Assembly (NCBI RefSeq): GCF_004342485.1
Contig: NZ_SMBU01000030.1
Coordinates: 1-64,000, forward strand
DNA: 64,000 nt
Reading direction: 5' to 3'
From: Roseateles saccharophilus
Lineage (GTDB): Bacteria > Pseudomonadota > Gammaproteobacteria > Burkholderiales > Burkholderiaceae_C
The position numbers and the translations under genes are program-made. The first letter of the stretch is position 1. Each line of letters begins with the position of its first letter. Below are positions 4,599-23,582 of this stretch, piece by piece. The notes beneath the pieces are model-generated. The model was not told the DNA's origin and did not search any database. It saw nothing but the letters and a program-made list of their open reading frames with translations.

Positions 4599-5302
4599 CG
4601 TGAAATCTCCTTGGCGCAGCGAAAGCCCAGGCTGGCCGTGCTGTCGGCCGCGCTCAGCGAGGCCAGCAGCGCGATGCGCATCAGCACGGCATAGTTCTGG
4701 CGGTCCTGCAGATCCAGCGCGCCAGCGCCGCAGAACTTGAGCCGGTCGGGGTCTTCGGCGCTGCGGCTATCGGAATTGACCAGCAGGCTGTTGAAGTCGT
4801 CCACCCATTCCCAGACCAGGCCGTGCAGGTCGCGCACGCCGTAGACATTGGGCGCGCCGCCGACGGCCGGCAGCGGGGTGTTGGCCGGGCGCGCATACCA
4901 GCCGAGGATGGTGGCCAGCCAGCGCGGGTCGCTGCGCGCGTCCGGGCGCGTCGCGTCGGCCGCGGCGGCGTACTCCCATTCCAGCCAGGTCGGCAGCCGC
5001 GCGCCCTCGCTCTCGCAATAGGCCTGGGCCGCGAACCAGCTGACCGCCGTCTGCGGCGCATCGGGGGCGCCCTCCGCCTGCAGATAGCCGGCCGACGCGA
5101 AGGCCTGCGGCGCGCGCTCGGCCTGCCATTCGGGATGCTCCTGCAGGAAGGCCGCGAACTCGGCCCGCGTGACCGGCCGCTCGCGCAGCGCGAAGGCGGC
5201 GACGCTGGCCGGCTCGCGGTCCGAGTCGCGCGCCAGCACGCTGGCGATGTGACCAGCAGGCAGGCTCACATAGGCCGCCAGTGCGAGTGCGGCCAGGCTC
5301 AT
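4595..5302 (-). CDS. nirV: NirV-like protein (formylglycine-generating-enzyme/SUMF1 fold)
   Basis: 235 residues with an N-terminal hydrophobic stretch ([17 protein letters not shown]) that could be a signal anchor. The body is an FGE-sulfatase/EgtB-type domain, seen in PVTRAEFAAFL, QTAVSWFAAQAYCESEGARL, PTWLEWEYAAA, and the C-terminal LGFRCAKE typical of the family. NirV is known as a companion of copper nitrite reductases; its exact function is unsettled. Its start overlaps the nirK stop (TGATG) and its end overlaps the SCO gene (ATGA), so the three are co-translated. Export to the periplasm fits its partners. Confidence 0.85.
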   Translation of the reverse strand: MSLAALALAAYVSLPAGHIASVLARDSDREPASVAAFALRERPVTRAEFAAFLQEHPEWQAERAPQAFASAGYLQAEGAPDAPQTAVSWFAAQAYCESEGARLPTWLEWEYAAAADATRPDARSDPRWLATILGWYARPANTPLPAVGGAPNVYGVRDLHGLVWEWVDDFNSLLVNSDSRSAEDPDRLKFCGAGALDLQDRQNYAVLMRIALLASLSAADSTASLGFRCAKEISR

Positions 5303-6744
5303 CAGTGAGCCGCCGCGGCAGCCGCCGGCTTGCTGGCGCGGGCCTTCTTGACCTCGTCGGCCGCGATGCTGCCACCGGCGTTGTCCCAGCTGTTCAGCAC
5401 ATAGGTCAGGATGTTGGCGACCTCGTCGTCATTGAGCTGATTCATCGGTGGCATCACCGAGTTGTAGTCCTTGCCGTTGACGGTGACCTTGCCCGACAGG
5501 CCGTTCAGCACCACGCCGACGGCGCGCTTGGGGTCGGCGCCCAGGAAGTCGGACTTGGCCAGCGGCGGGAAGACGCCCGGCAGGCCGGCGCCACCGGCTT
5601 GGTGGCAGACCGAGCAGGTGCCGGCGAACAGTTCCTTGCCGGCGGCGATCTGGTCCTGCAGCGTCAGCTTGCCGCTGGCGGCGGCCTGCGTGGCGGTGGC
5701 CACGGCCTTCAGGTTGGGCTGGGCGCGGTCGCCGAGGTAGACGGAGTCCAGTTCCTTGCCAGAGTAGATGCTCTTGTCCTCGGGGCCGTCGATCTTCAGG
5801 ATGGCCAGCGCGCCCTTGTTGAAGGCACGGAAGATGGAGTGGTCGACCAGCACATAGCTGCCCGGCACCTTGGCCTTGAAGTCGACGATGGCGGCGCCGC
5901 CGGCCGGGATCAGCGTCGTCTGCACGTTCTTCTGCGCCAGCGTGCCGCCCTCGAAGCGCACGTTGTCGAAGATGGCGCCGATGACGTGGAAGCTCGACAC
6001 CAGGTTGGGGCCGCCGTTGCCGACGAACATGCGCACCGTCTCACCGGTCTTGGCCTTCAGCGCGCGGTCGCCGGTCAGCGAACCCTCGGCGCCGTTGAAG
6101 ACAACATAGGTCGGGCGCTCGTCGATGGCCTTCTCCATGTCGAAGGGCTGCTGGCCCTTCTCGCGGTACTTGCCGGCCGTGTAGAAGTCGCCCTGCATAA
6201 CGTAGTACTCGTGATCCACCTTGGGCAGGCCCTGCGGCGGCTCGACGAGGATGAGGCCGTACATGCCGTTGGCCACGTGCATGCCCACTGGCGCCGTCGC
6301 GCAGTGGTACACATAGATGCCTTCGTTCAGCGCCTTGAACGTGAACTGCGATTCATGCCCCGGCGCCGTGAAGCTGGACGCCGCGCCGCCGCCCGGGCCG
6401 GTCACGCCGTGCAGGTCGATGTTGTGCGGCATCTTGCTGCTCGGGTGGTTCTTCAGGTGAAACTCGACGGTGTCGCCCTGGCGCACGCGGATGAAGCTGC
6501 CCGGCACCGTGCCGCCGAAGGTCCAGAAGGTGTAGCTGACGCCTTCCGAGAGGGACATCTCCTTCTCGACCACTTCCAGCTCGACGATGACCTTGGCCGG
6601 CGCCTTGCGACCGGTGGGCGGCGGCACCAGCGGCGGGCTGGTCAGCTCCGCCCTCACGACGGGCAGGGGCGTCTGGGCCTGCAACGGCTGCAACGCCAGC
6701 AGCGATGTGACCAGCACGGCCAAGCCCAACAGTCGGGTACGCAT
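5302..6744 (-). CDS. nirK: Copper-containing nitrite reductase with C-terminal cytochrome c domain
   Basis: 480 residues. A signal peptide ([24 protein letters not shown]) is followed by two cupredoxin domains with copper-ligand segments [27 protein letters not shown] and SSFHVIG. A further C-terminal domain of about 110 residues carries the heme motif CSVCH and a later methionine in NSVMPPM. NirK reduces nitrite to nitric oxide in the periplasm; the tethered cytochrome c, known from some betaproteobacterial NirKs, supplies electrons directly. A strong ribosome site (AAGGAG) precedes ATG 6744. The gene leads the nirK-nirV-sco operon and has an FNR/Dnr-type box at 6800-6813. The Lys/Ala-rich tail at the end is low complexity. 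No nor genes are in the window. Confidence 0.95.
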
Positions 6745-9332: not shown

Positions 9333-9346
9333 TTGACCCGCATCAA
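9333..9346. promoter_or_regulatory. FNR/Dnr-type box ahead of the protease-cyclase operon
   Basis: TTGACCCGCATCAA is a near-palindrome of the TTGAY-N4-RTCAA class. Its centre is 41.5 bp from ATG 9381, and TAGGGT at 9369-9374 sits at -10 spacing. If it works in class II mode the transcript would start at or next to the ATG. Confidence 0.55.
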
Positions 9347-11357: not shown

Positions 11358-11371
11358 TTGATACAGCTCAA
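11358..11371. promoter_or_regulatory. FNR/Dnr-type box
   Basis: TTGATACAGCTCAA fits the FNR-family consensus (TTGAT perfect, CTCAA one change). A TAGAGT hexamer at 11393-11398 lies at -10 spacing, and the GGAG ribosome site at about 11412 precedes ATG 11424. The predicted start near 11406 fits class II activation well. Confidence 0.7.
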
Positions 11372-15325: not shown

Positions 15326-16025
<700 letters not shown>

Positions 16026-16054
<29 letters not shown>

Positions 16055-17255
16055 GGCGCGCGGCGCGCAGGGCTGGCGCCACGGCGGCGAGCAGGCCGGT
16101 GACGGTGGCCAGCAGCAGTGCCGCCACGAAGAGCACGGCCTCCAGCGTCACCGGCACCAGCGGCAGCCCGTCGGGGCCGAGGGCGAGCCGCCGCCACAGC
16201 AACAGGGCCACGGCGCCGATGGACGAACCCACCGCCGAGCCCGCCAGGCCCAGCAGCCCGCCCTGCAGCAGGAACAGACGCAGCACGCGCCCGCGCGTGA
16301 CGCCCATCGCGCGCAGGATGCCGATCTCGCGTGACTTCTGCACCACCGACACGAAGAGCACGCTGGCGATGCCGAAGGCCACCGACAGGCCGACGAAGAA
16401 GCGGATGGCCGTGTTGGCCGTGATCTGCGCCTGCACCGCGCTGAAGAACTGCGCATTGGTCTTGATCCAGCTGTCGGCCTCCACGCCGGTACGCGCCGTG
16501 ATGCGCTGGGCGACATCCTCGGCGGCATAGATGTCGGCCACGGTCACGTCGAGGCTGGAGATGCCGCCCTGCAGACCGAGCAGGCTCTGCGCGCCGTGCA
16601 GGGCCATATAGGTGGTGCGCTGGTTGGCGCCCTTGTTGCCGAGGTCGAAGATGCCGCTCACGGTGAACACGCTGTCGGCCCCCGAGGCCGCGGTGACGCG
16701 CAGCTTGTCGCCCACCCCCAGGCCGAGGTCGCTGGCCAGGTCCACACCGATCAGGATGTCGCCGGCGTTCAGCCGCGTGCCGCCGCGCACCATCTTGTCG
16801 GGCAGCGTGACGATGCGGAAGTAGAGCTGCGGCTCGATGCCGACGACACTGGTCGCCCGGCTGGCCTCGCCCCGCACGACCAGGGCCGAGCCGGTCGCCG
16901 AGGGCGACACGACGAGCACCTCGGGCATGGCGCGGATCTGCGCGGCGATGGCCTGCCACTGGTCGATGGATTTGAGCCTCTGCAGCGGTGCCTGCACGAT
17001 GGCGTCCTCGACGAGGCCGGGCTGGCCGCCGCGCAGCGGCCGCGCGGTCTGCTGGGGCGGCAGCAGCTGGATGTGAGACTGGGCGGTCAGCACGCGGCGG
17101 ATGAAATTGGCCTGCAGCCCGGTGAGCAGCGCGGACATGAAGACGATGACCGCGACGCCGATGGCCACGCCGCCGATGATGAACACGGTCTGCCAGCGCC
17201 CTTCGCGCAGAAAGCGCGACGCGACGATCCACTCGAAGGGCTGCCAGTTCCTCAC
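16026..17255 (-). CDS. FtsX/MacB-fold ABC transporter permease (DevC type)
   Basis: 409 residues: one N-terminal membrane segment ([22 protein letters not shown]), a periplasmic domain of about 200 residues, then three C-terminal membrane segments ([20 protein letters not shown], a second around [12 protein letters not shown], and a third near [20 protein letters not shown]). [15 protein letters not shown] is the conserved coupling region of the family. The complex would be a mechanotransmission-type exporter or lipoprotein/efflux transporter together with the adaptor and ATPase. The start overlaps the end of the adaptor gene by ATGA. Substrate unknown. Confidence 0.9.
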
Positions 17256-18451
17256 GGCGTGCCGCCCGCGGCGCGCAGCCGGCCACCCTCGCTCACGCCC
17301 GCCGAGGCCGGCACGAGCTGGTCACCCGGCTTCAGGCCGTCCAGCACCTCGACGAGGCCGGTGCCGCGCAGCCCGAGCCGCACGGGCTGGCGCCGGGCGT
17401 GGCCGGCATCGACCTTGAGCACCCAGGGCTTGGCGGTCTCGGCGTCGTGCAGCAGGTCCACCGGCACGGCCAGCGCATGCGCGCGGCGCGCGACCTCGAC
17501 ATCGACCGAGACGGTCATGTCCTGGCGCAGATAGGCCGGCGGCGTGGGCACGCGCAGCTTGACCTCCACCGAGCCGCGCTGCACGTCCACGCCCGGGTTG
17601 ATGTAGGTCAGCTCGGCGGCAAAGCGCTGGTCGGCGAAGGCGTCGGCCGAGGCCAGCGCCTTCTGGCCCAGCGCCAGCAGGCCGAGGTTCTTCTCGTCGA
17701 ACTGCACGACGAGCTGGGTCTCGCCGGCCGGCGACAGCACCATCAGCGTCTTGCCCGGCTGCACGACGTCGCCACGCTCCACGTCGCGGCTGATCAGCAC
17801 GCCGTCCACCGGCGCGCTGACCGTGGCATAGCGCAGCCGCGCCTGCGCCATCTCGGCATTGGCCTGGGCCTGGGCCAGGGCCGCCGCGGCGATGGCCACA
17901 TCGCTGCCACCGGGCTGGGCCGACTCGAGCTGCTTGCGGGCCGCGCCGAGCTGGGCATCCGCGAGCTCCACGCTCTTGCGCGCATCGTCGAGCGCGGCCT
18001 GGCCCACATAGCCCTGGGCGAACAGCTCTTCCTGGCGGCGCTGCGTGGCGCGCGCGTTGTCCAGCGTGGCCTGGGCCTGGCGCAGCCCCTGCACGGCCAC
18101 CGGGCGCTGCACCTCCTGCAGCTGGCGCAGGCGCGCCCGTGCCTGCGCCACCGCCACGTCGGCCTCGCGGGCCGCGGCGCGCAGCTCGCCGTCGTCCAGC
18201 TCCACGAGAGGCTGGCCAGCCTTCACCGTCTGGCCCTCGTCGACCGGCACGCGCAGCACCGTGCCGACGATCTGCGCGCCAACATCCACCCGGTGCGGCG
18301 CCTCGACCCGGCCGGTGGCGACCACGGAGCGCACCAGGTCACGCGGCGCGACGCCGACCGTCTGCACCCTGGGCCCGAGCAGCAGGACGCTGCCCTGCCA
18401 GGCCAGCAGCGCGGCCACGGCCAGGCCCGCGCCCAGATAGACAGCCCGCAC
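17252..18451 (-). CDS. Periplasmic adaptor (membrane fusion protein, HlyD/DevB type)
   Basis: 399 residues. An N-terminal membrane anchor (VYLGAGLAVAALLAWQGSVLLL) is followed by a first lipoyl half (VGAQIVGTVLRVPVDEGQTV), a long alpha-hairpin coiled coil (about residues 95-200, rich in Ala/Gln/Arg), the second lipoyl half (ATVSAPVDGVLISRDVERGD), and beta-barrel domains. Such adaptors bridge an inner-membrane transporter to an outer-membrane channel; no TolC gene is nearby. First gene of the three-gene exporter operon. Only 3 bp separate its start from the end of the UspA gene at 18455, which reads the same way, so the UspA promoter may also drive the exporter. Confidence 0.9.
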   Translation of the reverse strand: MRAVYLGAGLAVAALLAWQGSVLLLGPRVQTVGVAPRDLVRSVVATGRVEAPHRVDVGAQIVGTVLRVPVDEGQTVKAGQPLVELDDGELRAAAREADVAVAQARARLRQLQEVQRPVAVQGLRQAQATLDNARATQRRQEELFAQGYVGQAALDDARKSVELADAQLGAARKQLESAQPGGSDVAIAAAALAQAQANAEMAQARLRYATVSAPVDGVLISRDVERGDVVQPGKTLMVLSPAGETQLVVQFDEKNLGLLALGQKALASADAFADQRFAAELTYINPGVDVQRGSVEVKLRVPTPPAYLRQDMTVSVDVEVARRAHALAVPVDLLHDAETAKPWVLKVDAGHARRQPVRLGLRGTGLVEVLDGLKPGDQLVPASAGVSEGGRLRAAGGTP

Positions 18452-18454
18452 GCG

Positions 18455-18901
18455 CTAGGCTCCGCGCACCAGCAGCACCGGCACGTTGGCGGTGCGTAGG
18501 ATCTGCTCAGCGTCGCTGCCCAGCAGCATGCGCTTCACGCCGCGCCGGCCATGGGTGCCGATGACGATGAGGTCGGCCTTCCAGCCGGTGGCCTCCTCCA
18601 GCACGATCTCGTGGACGCGCTCGGCCATCACCTCGCGCAGGCAGGTGTCGACCTGCACACCGGCCGCCGCGACACGCTGGCGCGCGCGGTCGAGCACGAT
18701 CTGCCCGCCCTCGCGCAGCAACGGCAGGATCTCCGCGGAATAGCCGGCGAAGGCGTCGGCATCGACGACGACGGGCATCGCATCCACGACATTCAGCAGG
18801 CGGATGTGGCCGCCGGTCAGCTTGGCCAGCGAGATGGCTTCGTCCAGGCCCTTCTCGGACGTGACACTGCCGTCGGTGGGAACGAGGATGCGTTGATACA
18901 T
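18455..18901 (-). CDS. Single-domain universal stress protein (UspA family)
   Basis: 148 residues, the usual length of a single Usp domain. It starts MYQRILVPTDGS and carries the ATP-binding signature VIGTHGRRGVKRMLLGSDAE followed by a PVLLVRG ending. The FNR/Dnr-type box at 18971-18984 stands at suitable distance upstream. Three bases separate its stop from the start of the adaptor gene, so the order uspA - adaptor - permease - ATPase may be one transcript. Confidence 0.92.
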   Translation of the reverse strand: MYQRILVPTDGSVTSEKGLDEAISLAKLTGGHIRLLNVVDAMPVVVDADAFAGYSAEILPLLREGGQIVLDRARQRVAAAGVQVDTCLREVMAERVHEIVLEEATGWKADLIVIGTHGRRGVKRMLLGSDAEQILRTANVPVLLVRGA

Positions 18902-18970: not shown

Positions 18971-18984
18971 TTGATCGCGGTCAA
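18971..18984. promoter_or_regulatory. FNR/Dnr-type box of the uspA-exporter operon
   Basis: TTGATCGCGGTCAA is a near-perfect TTGAT-N4-RTCAA palindrome. On the minus strand TAAGGT (18948-18943) lies at -10 spacing, and the predicted start near 18936 leaves a 35-base leader before ATG 18901. The box lies only 4 bp past the stop of the carbamoyltransferase-like gene. Confidence 0.72.
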
Positions 18985-18988
18985 GCGT

Positions 18989-19456
18989 TCAGGCCATGCT
19001 GACGATCAGCGCGGCCTGCAGGATGCGGCGGCGCTTGTCGGCCGGCGACGCGTCGCCATCGAGCTCGGCGGCGAGCGCCGTGGTCGGATGCGCCGCGGTG
19101 GCCAGGCCGGCGAACACCGGGATGCCGGCGCTGCGCGCGATGCGCTGCACCAGCGCGGCCGGCAGGTGCTGGCACTCGACCGCGTCGTAGAGCCGGCCCA
19201 GCATGCGCGCGGTGTCTTCGACCTGGCGCGCGCTGCTGCGCGCATCCAGGCCGGGCTGGACGAGGGAGACATGGGCCCCGAGCGCCGCGGCCGCCTGCAC
19301 GAACTCGCTGGCGCTCTGGTCATCCTTGCTGGGCGACAGCAGGGCCAGGTTCTTGCCGTTGAGCAGCTGCCGGGCGGCTTCGCCCGCACCGGCCAGGGCA
19401 CGCGCCTGGAGCACCAGGGCTGCGGCGTCCTGGGGGCCGGAGAAGTCGGCGGGCAT
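18989..19456 (-). CDS. Ornithine-carbamoyltransferase-like N-terminal domain protein (half-length)
   Basis: 155 residues from ATG 19456 (MPADFSGPQ); an ATG at 19483 would lie on the predicted transcription start. The segment VEDTARMLGRLYDAVECQ...IPVFAGLATAAHPTTALA aligns by eye with the carbamoyl-phosphate domain of ArgI-type ornithine carbamoyltransferase (DTARVLGRMYD...VPVWNGLTxxxHPTQ). The protein stops where the ornithine-binding domain should begin, and the carbamoyl-phosphate loop STRTR is replaced by SPSKDD. It cannot be a normal enzyme; a binding or regulatory role, or a relic kept by selection, is possible. It has its own FNR/Dnr-type box and is divergent from the CRP/FNR regulator. 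Confidence 0.75.
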   Translation of the reverse strand: MPADFSGPQDAAALVLQARALAGAGEAARQLLNGKNLALLSPSKDDQSASEFVQAAAALGAHVSLVQPGLDARSSARQVEDTARMLGRLYDAVECQHLPAALVQRIARSAGIPVFAGLATAAHPTTALAAELDGDASPADKRRRILQAALIVSMA

Positions 19457-19517
19457 GGCGCCTTGACGGGGTCTGGAGGGCATCGGCGCCAGCGTAGCGA
19501 AGCGATTCGCGCGCTCT

Positions 19518-19531
19518 TTGACGGCCGTCAA
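19518..19531. promoter_or_regulatory. FNR/Dnr-type box between the carbamoyltransferase-like gene and the regulator
   Basis: TTGACGGCCGTCAA is a perfect 14-bp palindrome. On the minus strand TACGCT (19496-19491) is at -10 spacing and the predicted start is near 19483, with an AAGG ribosome site before ATG 19456. It is about 150 bp from the regulator gene on the other strand and may also serve autoregulation. Confidence 0.72.
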
Positions 19532-19680: not shown

Positions 19681-20439
19681 ATGCAGCTCCAGCCCGCCTG
19701 TACCGCCAGCAACTTCACCGCTGCCCCCCGTCAGGCCGCCCCCGAGGCCGGCGCCTGCGGGCAGCGCATCGCCGACGCGTTGAAGCTGATCGCGACGCTG
19801 CTGGAACCCCAGCGCCGCGTGGTGCACGCGGGCGACGTGATCTACCGGGCCGGCGAGCCCTTCAGCAGGCTGCATATCCTGAACTCGGGCCTGTTCAAGC
19901 TGCTCAGCCTGTCGGCCGACGGCCGCGAGCAGGTCGTCGGGCTGCGCCTGCGCGGCGACTGGCTGGGCTTCAGCGCCATCGCCGGCGGCGTCTATGCCTG
20001 CGACGCCATCGCGATGGACACGGGCGAGGTCTGGACCGTGCCCTACGACGCGCTGCTGCGGGCCTGCAGCCGGCACCCCGAGCTGACGGCGATCGTCCAC
20101 GAGGCCATGAGCCACGAGATCGTGCGCGACCGCGACTCGCTGATCGCCCTGTGCACGCTGCCCGCCGATGCGCGGGTGGTGGCCTTCCTGCAGTTCTGGG
20201 CCGACTCGCTGGCCCGACGCGGCCTGCGGACCGACCAGATCAGCCTGCGCCTGACCCGCGCCGAGATCGGCAACTACCTGGGCCTGACGCTGGAGACCGT
20301 GAGCCGCGTGCTGTCCAAGCTGGCACGCGCCCGCCTCATCGCCTTCAACGAGAAGAACCGCCGCGACATCTGCATTCCCGACTTCCATGCCCTCGGCGCC
20401 TTCGTCCAGAGGCGCGAGGCCGGCGTGGGCCTGCACTGA
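19681..20439 (+). CDS. CRP/FNR-family transcription regulator lacking FNR cluster cysteines
   Basis: 252 residues from ATG 19681. The cyclic-nucleotide-type beta roll is seen in VVHAGDVIYRAGEPFSRLHIL and GDWLGFSAI, and the winged HTH in ISLRLTRAEIGNYLGLTLE. The recognition helix has ETVSRVL, the E-xx-SR pattern of FNR/Dnr/FixK proteins that read TTGAT half-sites. The N-terminal C-x2-C-x5-C cluster motif of oxygen-sensing FNR is absent (only isolated Cys at about 7 and 22), and the position of FNR Cys122 is Trp. So it is more likely a Dnr/Nnr- or FixK-like regulator. It is the natural candidate to bind the five boxes between 6800 and 19531. Confidence 0.88.
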   Translation: MQLQPACTASNFTAAPRQAAPEAGACGQRIADALKLIATLLEPQRRVVHAGDVIYRAGEPFSRLHILNSGLFKLLSLSADGREQVVGLRLRGDWLGFSAIAGGVYACDAIAMDTGEVWTVPYDALLRACSRHPELTAIVHEAMSHEIVRDRDSLIALCTLPADARVVAFLQFWADSLARRGLRTDQISLRLTRAEIGNYLGLTLETVSRVLSKLARARLIAFNEKNRRDICIPDFHALGAFVQRREAGVGLH

Positions 20440-20457: not shown

Positions 20458-22554
20458 TCAGCTCCCGGCCGACAACGCGCGCGAGATGGCCTGTGCCAGT
20501 TCGCCGCGCGAATACGGCTTCTGCAGCAGCTCCCAGCCGGGCGGTGAATCGCGGTCGGCGTCGAGCAGCTCGGCCGAGAAGCCGGACATCAGCAGGATGG
20601 GCAGGCCGGGCAGGCGCGCCTGGGCCAGGCGGGCCAGCTCGGTGCCACGCATGCCGGAGCCCAGCGCGATGTCCGTCAGCAGCAGCTGGAAGCCGGCGCC
20701 GGGTACCAGCAGCAGCAGCGCCTGCTCGCCGCTGGCGCAGCTCGTGACCTCGCAACCCAGCATGCCCAGGAAATGCCAGGCAACCGAGCGCACCTCGGTG
20801 TCGTCCTCGACCATCAGCACCTTCAGGCCGGGCGGGATCGGGCCGGCGCTCCCGGCCGGCCCGCCGGCCGCGCCCTCGGGCAGCAGCGGCCGGGGCAGGT
20901 AGAGCGAGATCGTCGTGCCCGCGCCGGGCGCCGAGTCGATGGCCACGGCGCCGCGCGACTGCTTGACGAAGCCGTAGACGGTGCTGAGCCCCAGCCCCGT
21001 GCCACGCCCGGCCTGCTTGGTCGTGAAGAAGGGCTCGAAGGCCCGCTCCCTGACCTCCTCGGGCATGCCGGCACCGGTGTCGTAGATGGCGATGCGAAGG
21101 AAGCCGTCGTCCGCGGCGCCAGGGTCGTCGATCTCGCGCCTCACGTCCGCCGGCAGCGCGCTGGCGGGGCTCACGGCAAAGCGCAGCGCGCCGCCGTCGG
21201 GCATCGCGTCGCGCGCGTTGATGGCGATGTTCAGCAGCGCCGCCTCGAGCTGGCCGGGGTCGGCCTGCACCGTGCTGGCGGCGGGGTCGGCAAGGTCGAC
21301 GCTGATCTCGATGCGCTGGTCCAGCGTGCGGCGCAGCATGTCGGCCAGCGAATCCAGCATCGCGCCCACGTCGACCGTGCTCGGCTGCAGCACCTGGCGC
21401 CGCGAGAAGGCCAGCAGCTTGCCGGTCAGCTCGGCACCACGCCGGGCCGCACGCGTGGCGGCGCCGACGAGCTGCTGGCCGAACTTGTCCCGGGCCAGCG
21501 CCGGCAGTTCCTCGAGCACCTGCAGATTGCCCTGGATGACGGTCAACAGGTTGTTGAAGTCATGCGCGATGCCCCCCGTGAGCTGCCCGACGCTCTCCAG
21601 GCGCTGCGCATGGCTGAGGGCCTCCTCGCTCTGGGCCCGCTGCAGGCAGGTGGCCAGCAGGCTGGCGAGCGATTCGAGGAAGAGCGTGTCGTCGCTGCCG
21701 AAACGGCCGGCGCTGCGCGACTGCACGGACAGCACGCCGATGATGCGGCCCCGATCGGACAGCGGCACGGCCAGCAGGCTCGCCACGCCGGCTTCGACAT
21801 AGGCCTGCGGCAACTCGAAGCGAGCTTCCTGCGCCAGGTCGGCGACGACGACGGGGCCGCCCTGGGACAGCACATAGCCCGCCGCCGTGTCGGGCCGGTT
21901 GTCCATGCCGGAACCGACCGGCGCACCGGCCATCTCGCCACAGCAGCCGACGACGCGGAACGCCAGCCGGTCAGGGTCCAGCAGCAGCACGCTCGCGAAC
22001 TCCACCTCCAGGGCATCGGCTGCGACGGCCAGCGCCTGCATCAGCAATTGCTGCGGATCGCGCTCGTCCACGGCGCTGCGGCCGAGCTGCGCGAGGAGCT
22101 CGCTGTGGCGGGCACGCTGCAGCGCCTGCTTCACGCGCGGGTAGGCGCCGATGCCCCGGATGGCCGCCACGACGAAGGGCAGACCGTGGCTTTGCAGCGG
22201 GCTCAGCGCGATCTCGACCATGACCTCGCTGCCGTCGCGGCGCTTGGCCACCAGCTCCATCTGCGTGCCCATGGGCCGCGGCCTCGGCGCCTGGCCATAG
22301 GCCTGGCGGTAGGCCGCATGGCGCGGGCGGATGCTGTCCGGCACGAGTTCGTCCACGCCCAGGCCGATGAGCTCCTGCGCCGGATAGCCCAGCAGCGCGG
22401 CCGCCGCGGGATTGGCCAGCACGATCAGGCCCGCGGCGTCCACGAGCAGCAGGGCGTCCGGGTAGGCCGAAAACAGCGAGCGGTAGACCGTCAGGTCGTC
22501 CACGGCCTGCGCCGGCCCGGCCGCGGAGGGGGCAGGCGGCAGCAGTTCCATCAA
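20458..22554 (-). CDS. Hybrid sensor histidine kinase (PAS-GAF-HisKA-HATPase-REC)
   Basis: 698 residues, no membrane segments, so cytoplasmic. PAS domain at about 20-140 (FSAYPDALLLVDAAGLIVLA), GAF domain at about 155-310 (VASLLAVPLSDRGRIIGVLS), phospho-acceptor His in GGIAHDFNN near 330, ATPase boxes NIAINARDAMPDGG, YDTGAGMP and GRGTGLGLSTVYG, then a C-terminal receiver domain with MVEDD and acceptor Asp in LLLTDIALG. The HDFNN form marks the NtrB/HWE-like hybrid kinases. The start overlaps the stop of the OmpR-type regulator gene (ATGA). Signal unknown; a redox or small-ligand cue is plausible for PAS/GAF. Confidence 0.92.
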   Translation of the reverse strand: MMELLPPAPSAAGPAQAVDDLTVYRSLFSAYPDALLLVDAAGLIVLANPAAAALLGYPAQELIGLGVDELVPDSIRPRHAAYRQAYGQAPRPRPMGTQMELVAKRRDGSEVMVEIALSPLQSHGLPFVVAAIRGIGAYPRVKQALQRARHSELLAQLGRSAVDERDPQQLLMQALAVAADALEVEFASVLLLDPDRLAFRVVGCCGEMAGAPVGSGMDNRPDTAAGYVLSQGGPVVVADLAQEARFELPQAYVEAGVASLLAVPLSDRGRIIGVLSVQSRSAGRFGSDDTLFLESLASLLATCLQRAQSEEALSHAQRLESVGQLTGGIAHDFNNLLTVIQGNLQVLEELPALARDKFGQQLVGAATRAARRGAELTGKLLAFSRRQVLQPSTVDVGAMLDSLADMLRRTLDQRIEISVDLADPAASTVQADPGQLEAALLNIAINARDAMPDGGALRFAVSPASALPADVRREIDDPGAADDGFLRIAIYDTGAGMPEEVRERAFEPFFTTKQAGRGTGLGLSTVYGFVKQSRGAVAIDSAPGAGTTISLYLPRPLLPEGAAGGPAGSAGPIPPGLKVLMVEDDTEVRSVAWHFLGMLGCEVTSCASGEQALLLLVPGAGFQLLLTDIALGSGMRGTELARLAQARLPGLPILLMSGFSAELLDADRDSPPGWELLQKPYSRGELAQAISRALSAGS

Positions 22555-23294
22555 TGAACGGAAGCGACCGGCGGAATGAAGATGTAGCCGGCGCCGCGAA
22601 CCGACTTGATGATCTGCGGGTTGTCCGCGTCGGGCTCAAGCTTCCTGCGCAGGCGGCCGATCTGGACGTCGATGGTGCGGTCGAAGGGAGCCGCCTCGCG
22701 GCCACGCGTCTGCTCGAGCAGGAAATCGCGCGACAGCACGCGGCCCGGATGCTGCACCAGGGCCGCGAGCAGTTCGAACTCGCCCGTGGTCAGCCTCACT
22801 TCCGCGCCGCCCGGCGCATCCAGGCGGCGCGCGGCGAGATCCAGGCGCCAACCCAGGAAAGCCATGCAGCGGCGCGCCTCGGCAGCGCTCGCGGCAGGCA
22901 CCGCGGCGGGTGACGTGACCGGCGCCTGCGGCATCCGCCGCAGCACGGCCTTGATGCGCGCCACCAGCTCGCGCAGGTCGAAGGGCTTGGTGACGTAGTC
23001 GTCGGCCCCCACCTCCAGGCCCACGACCTTGTCGACCGCGTCGCCCCGCCCCGTGATGATGACCAGCCCGCATCGCCAGTGCTCGCGCAGCTGGCGTGCG
23101 ATGGCGAAGCCGTCCTCGCCCGGCAGGCCCAGGTCCAGCAGCACGAGGTCGGGCGGGTCGCTCGGCATCAGCGCCATCAGCGCGTGGCCGGAGTGCAGCT
23201 GCGTGGCGCGAAAGCCATGCTCCCCGAGGTAGTGGGCCAGCAACTCGGTGATGGCCGACTCGTCGTCGACTACGGCAATATGCTGATGCGTCAC
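22551..23294 (-). CDS. OmpR-family response regulator
   Basis: 247 residues from GTG 23294 (VTHQHIAVVDDESAITELL); there is no convincing start further upstream. Receiver domain with acidic pocket DDE, acceptor Asp in LVLLDLGLPGEDG and the Lys in DYVTKPFD; the C-terminal winged helix includes LTTGEFELLAAL and DRTIDVQIGRLRRKLE. It forms an operon with the hybrid kinase through a 4-bp overlap. The linker between domains (about 30 residues rich in Ala and Pro) is longer than usual. Target genes unknown. Confidence 0.92.
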   Translation of the reverse strand: MTHQHIAVVDDESAITELLAHYLGEHGFRATQLHSGHALMALMPSDPPDLVLLDLGLPGEDGFAIARQLREHWRCGLVIITGRGDAVDKVVGLEVGADDYVTKPFDLRELVARIKAVLRRMPQAPVTSPAAVPAASAAEARRCMAFLGWRLDLAARRLDAPGGAEVRLTTGEFELLAALVQHPGRVLSRDFLLEQTRGREAAPFDRTIDVQIGRLRRKLEPDADNPQIIKSVRGAGYIFIPPVASVH

Positions 23295-23582
23295 GGTGTC
23301 GCGCAGCTGCAGCGTTATGGTGCTGGCGATTCTTGCATCGATTGGGGTCCGGCGCTCAAGGGCATCCGGCGGCACACGCGAAGAAGTGCAGCGGAAAAAA
23401 CAAAACCCGCGCATGGCGGTTTTCGTGATGTTGAGCCAAATCGTTGATTCAGCTCGAAATTTTGGTGCCTGTTGCGCTGACCGTCTCTATGAAAAGTGAG
23501 GCTTTTCGCTACAAGTTACCCGCAAGCGCGATGGCTTTTAGCCGAAACCAGGTTCGATTCCTAGGCCGCCGTTCCGGCGGGC

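Follow-up and report, generated by a model that had tools for sequence, protein, structure and literature searches.

Pseudoenzymes are usually regarded as full-length dead copies, and an ornithine carbamoyltransferase (OTC) fold is known to act in protein–protein regulation in the yeast arginase–OTC regulatory complex, both partners of which are active enzymes. In the transcarbamylases, as their layout is described in PMC4581275, the domains are linked by helices 5 and 12, helix 1, which crosses helix 12, makes up the ridge on the convex face of the trimer, and trimers assemble through the carbamoyl phosphate (CP) domains, which meet at the threefold axis. Here we describe a bacterial gene in which such a two-domain metabolic enzyme has been reduced to one domain, with its closing helix rejoined. 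It encodes a single-domain pseudo-OTC of 164 amino acids at positions 18989..19483 (minus strand) of the window, i.e. of the whole 64,000-nucleotide stretch of Roseateles saccharophilus DNA that was analysed, and was delimited by its conserved start at 19483, Pfam, orthologue alignment, GC3 and AlphaFold2.

That the frame ending at 18989 represents an OTC-like gene with a CP domain, as the original prediction had proposed, is borne out by a Pfam OTCace_N match (E 1e-11) that exceeds the curated cut-off; NCBIfam OTC models match the protein far under their whole-protein cut-offs. Its start, however, is not the ATG at 19456 chosen then but an ATG nine codons further upstream, at 19483, which together with a length of 164–165 amino acids is shared by the window gene and the 11 orthologues closest to it within the genus. 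Codon use is indeed good, with a GC3 of 0.92 at the level of normal genes (0.90–0.95 in three neighbours). The named near relatives belong to Roseateles and Pelomonas, with identities of 58–70%.

When aligned with full-length OTC, the window protein follows the CP domain up to the position of the HPxQ motif and then jumps to the last helix, with a junction that reads '..RRRILQAALIVSMA' as against '..ENRLHTIKAVLVATLA' in the full-length enzyme. Its last approximately 18 residues match the C-terminal helix of OTC by sequence, and sequence alignment, AlphaFold2 and structure alignment all identify residues 147–164 (minus strand, 18992..19045) as the equivalent of OTC's last helix. AlphaFold2, which was given the window protein and eight relatives, i.e. 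an alignment of only 9 rows, produced five models with mean pLDDT values from 83 to 42, two of them being poor (55 and 42); the best one (83) shows a long final helix at residues 147–163. VIA-align placed this model onto Burkholderia xenovorans OTC with a Z of 18.5 and an rmsd of 2.7 over 153 residues, residues 7–164 of the model corresponding to 4–332 of the OTC chain; an alignment of this size has to take in the last helix. A simple C-terminal truncation of OTC is ruled out, because the last helix is still there in both the sequence and the structure alignment. Thus, the ornithine domain is wholly absent as had been stated, but the protein is not simply half of an OTC, since OTC's last helix is retained. 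Overall, the window protein has the transcarbamylase CP-domain fold (alpha–beta CP domain, helix 1 and C-terminal helix), and from the helix and trimer layout of the transcarbamylases together with the aligned segments we infer that pseudo-OTC keeps a complete CP half.

Within the same genus, the gene was found in 16 of 19 other genomes (17 of 20 including the window's own), and two same-genus genomes carry a second, more OTC-like copy. Among 16 genomes from other genera of the family, a single-sequence search saw it in none; it took a profile search to detect it there. In 399 genomes of the family this profile search gave matches in 84 genomes. Ninety-four loci were extracted, i.e. 10 ArcB loci (332–336 amino acids) and 84 pseudo-OTC loci, with one match to a 55-amino-acid fragment (L183) being dropped. 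The 84 pseudo-OTC loci are spread over 77 genomes, 66 of which belong to the 399-genome family sample, and comprise 72 mini forms (132–182 amino acids where the start is known), 11 mid forms (234–271 amino acids) and one nearly full-length form of 311 amino acids. Conservation at similar length therefore reaches beyond close strains, with 72 minis among the 84 pseudo-OTC loci of the family, and many homologues are half-length rather than all being full-length; this breadth also agrees with the view, voiced in the original prediction, that the gene is no random relic. A sequencing artefact is ruled out because one and the same architecture is seen at 72 mini loci. In the order sample, 57 of 399 genomes had a match at 1e-16, and among the matches listed the sole short frame from outside the family was a mid form in genome G601 (L195). 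The class sample matched in 151 of 369 genomes and contained no pseudo-OTC among the frames examined; among the matches listed, frames had about 300 amino acids or more except in G862 (L232; 295 amino acids, STRTR present), G898 (161 amino acids, at a contig end) and G1006 (231 amino acids), the last two being judged by length alone. Full-length frames were checked by sequence at the 10 ArcB loci, the window genome's own ArgF-like locus (L002), L021–L023 and L232, and the rest were assigned by frame length.

The CP-binding site differs profoundly between pseudo-OTC and ArcB. Residues of the STRTR loop have been exchanged one for one, S55 T56 R57 T58 having become D D Q S in the window protein (codons for DDQSA on the minus strand at 19310..19324, from an in-place OTC alignment with hand-counted coordinates). 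The motif is gone, as the original prediction had noted, but the loop itself is not missing, an acidic one standing in its place. None of the 83 minis and mids has the phosphate-binding SxRT motif (the window protein reads DDQS, and the nearly full-length L155 STRE), and the mean net charge of the loop goes from +3.0 with STRTR to about −1.9 in minis. Instead of the carbamyl-binding HPxQ motif the window protein has HPTT; His133 is kept in 57 of 72 minis (lost in 15) and in nine of 11 mids, and Gln136 in only five of 72 minis. In the minis, the window protein included, the HxLP motif is missing along with the whole second-substrate domain, and the HCLP Cys column in mids is a gap in 10 of 11 and Val in one. 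The conserved CP-binding Arg (R106 of E. coli OTC) is Gln in the window protein and remains Arg in none of the 72 minis and in one of 11 mids. Two further replacements are nearly uniform, i.e. Tyr105 by Cys (67/72 minis, 11/11 mids) and the helix-12 Lys by Gln (69/72 minis, 11/11 mids), and Arg319 is kept in 48 of 72 minis (one unreadable; lost in 23 of 71 readable) and in seven of 11 mids. Nine CP contacts could be scored out of the list published in PMC4581275. All nine are kept in each of the 10 extracted ArcB sequences and two, His133 and Arg319, in the window protein; the minis (n = 72) keep two contacts in 48 cases, one in 17, none in four, three in two and four in one, and the mids (n = 11) one in three cases, two in seven and three in one. 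Because His133 and Arg319 are each lost in part of the minis, no single functional site outside the fold core is shared by the whole family.

With two of nine contacts left in 48 of 72 minis, fewer in another 21, and a loop whose charge has been inverted, CP binding as suggested in the original prediction is very unlikely on the evidence of these alignments, and so is catalysis. The OTCace_N match and the retention of His133 and Arg319 in many family members could still be taken to mean that pseudo-OTC binds CP as a buffer or sensor or retains residual transfer activity, but each of the motifs SxRT, HPxQ and HxLP (as given in PMC4581275) has been lost, degraded or deleted, Arg106 has given way to other residues and the loop has turned acidic, which makes this reading very unlikely. 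The same changes could also mean that the emptied CP pocket has been rebuilt as a small-molecule or redox sensor, with a ligand or a metal, that would signal a low-oxygen or nitrogen-oxide state. In favour of such a sensor, the pocket-side changes, with Cys for Tyr105, Gln or Glu for Arg106, an acidic loop and mostly kept His133 and Arg319, are coherent rather than random; however, Cys and His are not everywhere retained together, and a buried Cys may serve packing alone. A rebuilt ligand or redox pocket, doubtful as it seems to us, is the main rival to the role by protein contacts discussed below.

An important question is where this protein comes from. In a tree based on the CP domain and the last helix, whose bootstrap is not fully settled, the 83 mids and minis form one clade branching from ArcB (support 100/99), 68 minis form one clade within it (99/93), and four same-genus minis stand beside a mid (99/97). 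This suggests two excisions rather than a single origin of minis, although an AU test leaves one origin unrejected (p 0.122). Stages of the conversion are found in living genomes, i.e. an intact operon, a lone decaying arcB, the mid form and the mini form. In genome G161 (L294), an intact arcDABC operon lies divergent from the same kind of regulator that accompanies pseudo-OTC and behind the box TTGACGGGCATCAA. In genome G322, a lone arcB of 311 amino acids (L155), in which STRTR is altered to STRER, is located beside the regulator, and the box before it is identical to that of G161 in all 14 bases; this lone arcB apparently represents an early stage of the same conversion. The same genome has a second locus (L148) with an intact arcDABC behind the same box, the regulator gene being absent from the stretch examined there, and in G143 (L280), where the contig ends, arcA lies opposite the regulator and a similar box. 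Gene calling in the stretches examined around the 84 pseudo-OTCs gave no arcA, arcC or arcD, whereas these genes are present at 10 of 10 ArcB loci; these neighbourhood gene calls are home-made, and some antisense shadows remain among them. An arcDABC operon in the same slot and a decaying lone arcB behind the same box argue that pseudo-OTC is a repurposed arcB, and we are highly confident that it represents a catalytically dead, single-domain descendant of ArcB from a lost arginine deiminase operon.

Is this descendant still under selection? In 12 pairs of pseudo-OTC genes, dN/dS was 0.09–0.50, with a Fisher p of 0.006 or lower in all 12, so that the dN/dS check proposed earlier reveals purifying selection. 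Constraint is relaxed, since these values lie above those of ArcB (0–0.11 in three pairs) and, in seven of eight comparable pairs, above that of the neighbouring regulator. Relaxed dN/dS, an ornithine domain that was lost step by step and an evident origin in a lost arc operon would also fit a functionless arcB relic that is slowly decaying and stays open by chance behind a strong promoter. Such a relic, however, is very hard to reconcile with dN/dS below 1 in every pair, with the absence of internal stops from any listed match of the profile search, in which stops were read through, and with a C-terminal helix motif and a promoter geometry that recur across the family.

This promoter has a characteristic structure. 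Class-II FNR promoters carry their box at −41.5. A pattern scan confirmed the well-placed FNR/Dnr-type box of the original prediction as TTGAC-N4-GTCAA (TTGACGGCCGTCAA; minus strand, 19518..19531), centred 41.5 nt ahead of the start codon. A putative −10 element, TACGCT (minus strand, 19491..19496), follows 21 nt past the box and 7 nt before the ATG; the transcription start is deduced from this class-II geometry, and the 28 nt from box centre to −10 agree with class-II FNR spacing. In the 12-locus clade that includes the window, the box centre lies 41–42 nt before the ATG, while the distance is mostly longer elsewhere, and because of this short distance the pseudo-OTC mRNA of this clade is probably leaderless. 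Across the family, 63 of 84 pseudo-OTC loci have a TTGA-N6-TCA(A/G) box no more than 150 nt ahead of the start (0.155 expected in shuffles; the upstream stretch counted for L125 is not its promoter), and a box by this pattern is absent from 21. A TAnnnT sequence 20–22 nt after the box is present in 56 of the 61 loci that have a box and a defined start (0.59 expected), the shuffles being mononucleotide for both elements; six loci were left out of this spacing count, i.e. L125, which lies within a 1202-amino-acid frame, and L117, L136, L138, L166 and L172, whose starts are not defined by an ATG. None of the 10 ArcB loci has a box before arcB, which is an unfair control because arc operons start at arcD. 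In the window itself, strict TTGA-N6-TCAA boxes occur five times (3601, 9333, 11358, 18971 and 19518; 0.055 expected in mononucleotide shuffles). That found by the pattern scan at 18971..18984 (minus strand; TTGATCGCGGTCAA on the plus strand) is the universal stress protein gene's own FNR-type box, this gene (usp; minus strand, 18455..18901) lying downstream of pseudo-OTC; the box at 9333 ends 35 bp ahead of a trypsin-like protease frame, and that at 11358 is located about 400 bp ahead of a usp gene.

Divergent from pseudo-OTC, the window encodes a CRP/FNR-type regulator (plus strand, 19681..20439; NCBIfam, tblastn). Iron–sulfur FNR proteins typically feature an N-terminal cysteine cluster, which this regulator does not have in its usual form; a CxxC..C-like pattern occurs in three of 69 regulators, and on the NCBIfam Fnr model the window regulator reaches 125 bits at a cut-off of 228. 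The recognition motif ETVSR or ESVSR is found in 68 instances over the 69 regulators, and a Cys at residue 128 (window frame as called) is near-invariant (67/69), with the clade possibly acting as a thiol or haem sensor. The window's genome encodes, at another place, a further member of the Fnr family that exceeds the curated Fnr cut-off, so either of the two FNR-type proteins may drive the gene.

The CRP/FNR gene expected as a neighbour is indeed a constant one, divergent in 70 of 84 pseudo-OTC loci and within 450 bp in 65 (the 19 without it at this distance include some where the contig ends), but usp, equally expected, is less so (25/84). Other neighbours are a histidine kinase in 70 loci, a response regulator in 55 and an acyl-CoA-synthetase/GNAT gene in 14, the regulator, kinase and usp counts coming from tblastn with seven loci cut short by contig ends. 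In the window these conserved neighbours are a hybrid sensor histidine kinase (minus strand, 20458..22554; tblastn), whose orthologue in L108 has the domain order PAS-GAF-HisKA-HATPase-REC, and an OmpR-type response regulator (minus strand, 22551..23297). The acyl-CoA-synthetase/GNAT gene adjoins pseudo-OTC in several relatives; in the window, putative ABC transporter genes (ATPase, permease and membrane-fusion type by appearance; 15326–18451) lie between it and usp. Further away, at 5302–6744, there is a copper nitrite-reductase-like gene with multicopper oxidase domains and a C-terminal cytochrome c domain.

By genome, with the regulator scored at 1e-77, 65 of the 399 family genomes have both genes, one has pseudo-OTC alone, nine the regulator alone and 324 neither; this threshold was picked after the list had been seen, and the corresponding Fisher p of 1e-63 ignores shared ancestry. 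At 1e-65 the regulator is present in all 66 pseudo-OTC genomes and alone in 18 further ones. Co-occurrence of pseudo-OTC with one regulator clade thus appears near-obligate in these genomes, and the linkage may come merely from the shared promoter region. Another reading would be that conservation concerns the control region of the regulator itself, i.e. the box in the shared promoter, with the open reading frame being incidental. Box and divergent regulator are in fact conserved together, and three genomes with the regulator and without pseudo-OTC (L275, L276 and L279) have no box in the 9 kb examined; yet selection at the protein level, the retained fold and a −10 that, on the side of pseudo-OTC, keeps a set distance from the box render an incidental frame hardly credible. 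At L275–L277, a frame of about 455–460 amino acids, methyltransferase-like by eye, is located beside the regulator.

With the active site and one domain lost and the remainder kept in many relatives, a new non-enzymatic job is probable. We propose that the divergent regulator, or a canonical FNR encoded elsewhere in the genome, would turn pseudo-OTC on at low oxygen, and that its product would be a small, possibly trimeric, non-enzymatic binding protein that feeds back by protein contacts on the low-oxygen cluster of regulator, histidine kinase and response regulator. Taken as a whole, this explanation, i.e. a dead ArcB descendant, low-oxygen induction and a non-enzymatic role via contacts, stands in our judgement at about an even chance, with the protein-contact role within the regulatory cluster itself being a tentative assignment that falls somewhat short of that. 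More speculatively, pseudo-OTC could serve an FNR-like regulator that has no iron–sulfur cluster as a dedicated protein input, such that an enzyme once under the control of this regulator would now control it or sense on its behalf, with arcB alone pared down to its CP domain, perhaps more than once, as Burkholderiales lost their arc operons; we regard this as quite unlikely.

Protein contacts could also involve an enzyme. Since transcarbamylase trimers form through their CP domains (PMC4581275) and an ArgF-like OTC is encoded in the window's genome, pseudo-OTC might act as a dominant-negative or scaffold subunit that joins, via its CP domain, the trimer of a genuine carbamoyltransferase, either ArgF or, in genomes that have it, ArcB, and modulates this enzyme. 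However, ArcB was not found in the window's genome, and 57 of the 66 pseudo-OTC genomes of the family sample have no full-length ArcB match (the 22 genomes with full-length ArcB having been assigned by E-value and frame length in the profile search); moreover, the genome's own ArgF-like protein is just 27% identical over the match, and an ArgF-like second match occurs in 20 of 20 genus genomes, including three without pseudo-OTC. Such a subunit is accordingly very improbable. A true catabolic OTC as partner, which would be one case of the true carbamoyltransferase suggested in the original prediction, is likewise unlikely, as the window's genome has no arcA match and the other full-length OTC found in it is ArgF-like. 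ArcB as a pathway partner is also disfavoured, with both ArcB and arcA unmatched in the window's genome.

If pseudo-OTC is turned on at low oxygen as proposed, a widespread and apparently unstudied gene joins the low-oxygen response of Burkholderiales. As intermediate stages are present in living relatives, both the excision of a domain and the change in function can here be put to a direct test. At a more practical level, annotation pipelines that rely on domain hits could take such proteins for ornithine carbamoyltransferases. We found no report in the open-licence literature of an OTC like this one, single-domain or non-catalytic, and one may exist elsewhere.

Among known systems, ArcB, the catabolic OTC of arcDABC, is the closest. 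Pseudo-OTC shares with it the CP-domain fold and the C-terminal helix, its best solved relatives are OTCs, it occupies the same genomic slot beside the regulator as arcDABC does in a relative, and it branches from ArcB in the tree. In contrast to ArcB, it has about 164 rather than 332 amino acids, its ornithine domain is excised, SxRT and Arg106 are lost and HPxQ is degraded, and no arcA, arcC or arcD is called nearby. The yeast arginase–OTC complex provides a precedent for regulation by an OTC fold, but with active enzymes. Divergent members of the same superfamily include YTCase (YgeW) and other transcarbamylases whose function is unknown or divergent, but YTCase, as described in PMC4581275, retains the CP-binding residues and both domains, and pseudo-OTC neither. 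Finally, the pseudo-dihydroorotases that PMC4581275 describes as partners in ATCase complexes and CAD-like proteins belong to another enzyme family and are complexed with or fused to ATCase, but like pseudo-OTC they represent dead relatives of a metabolic enzyme in a non-catalytic role.
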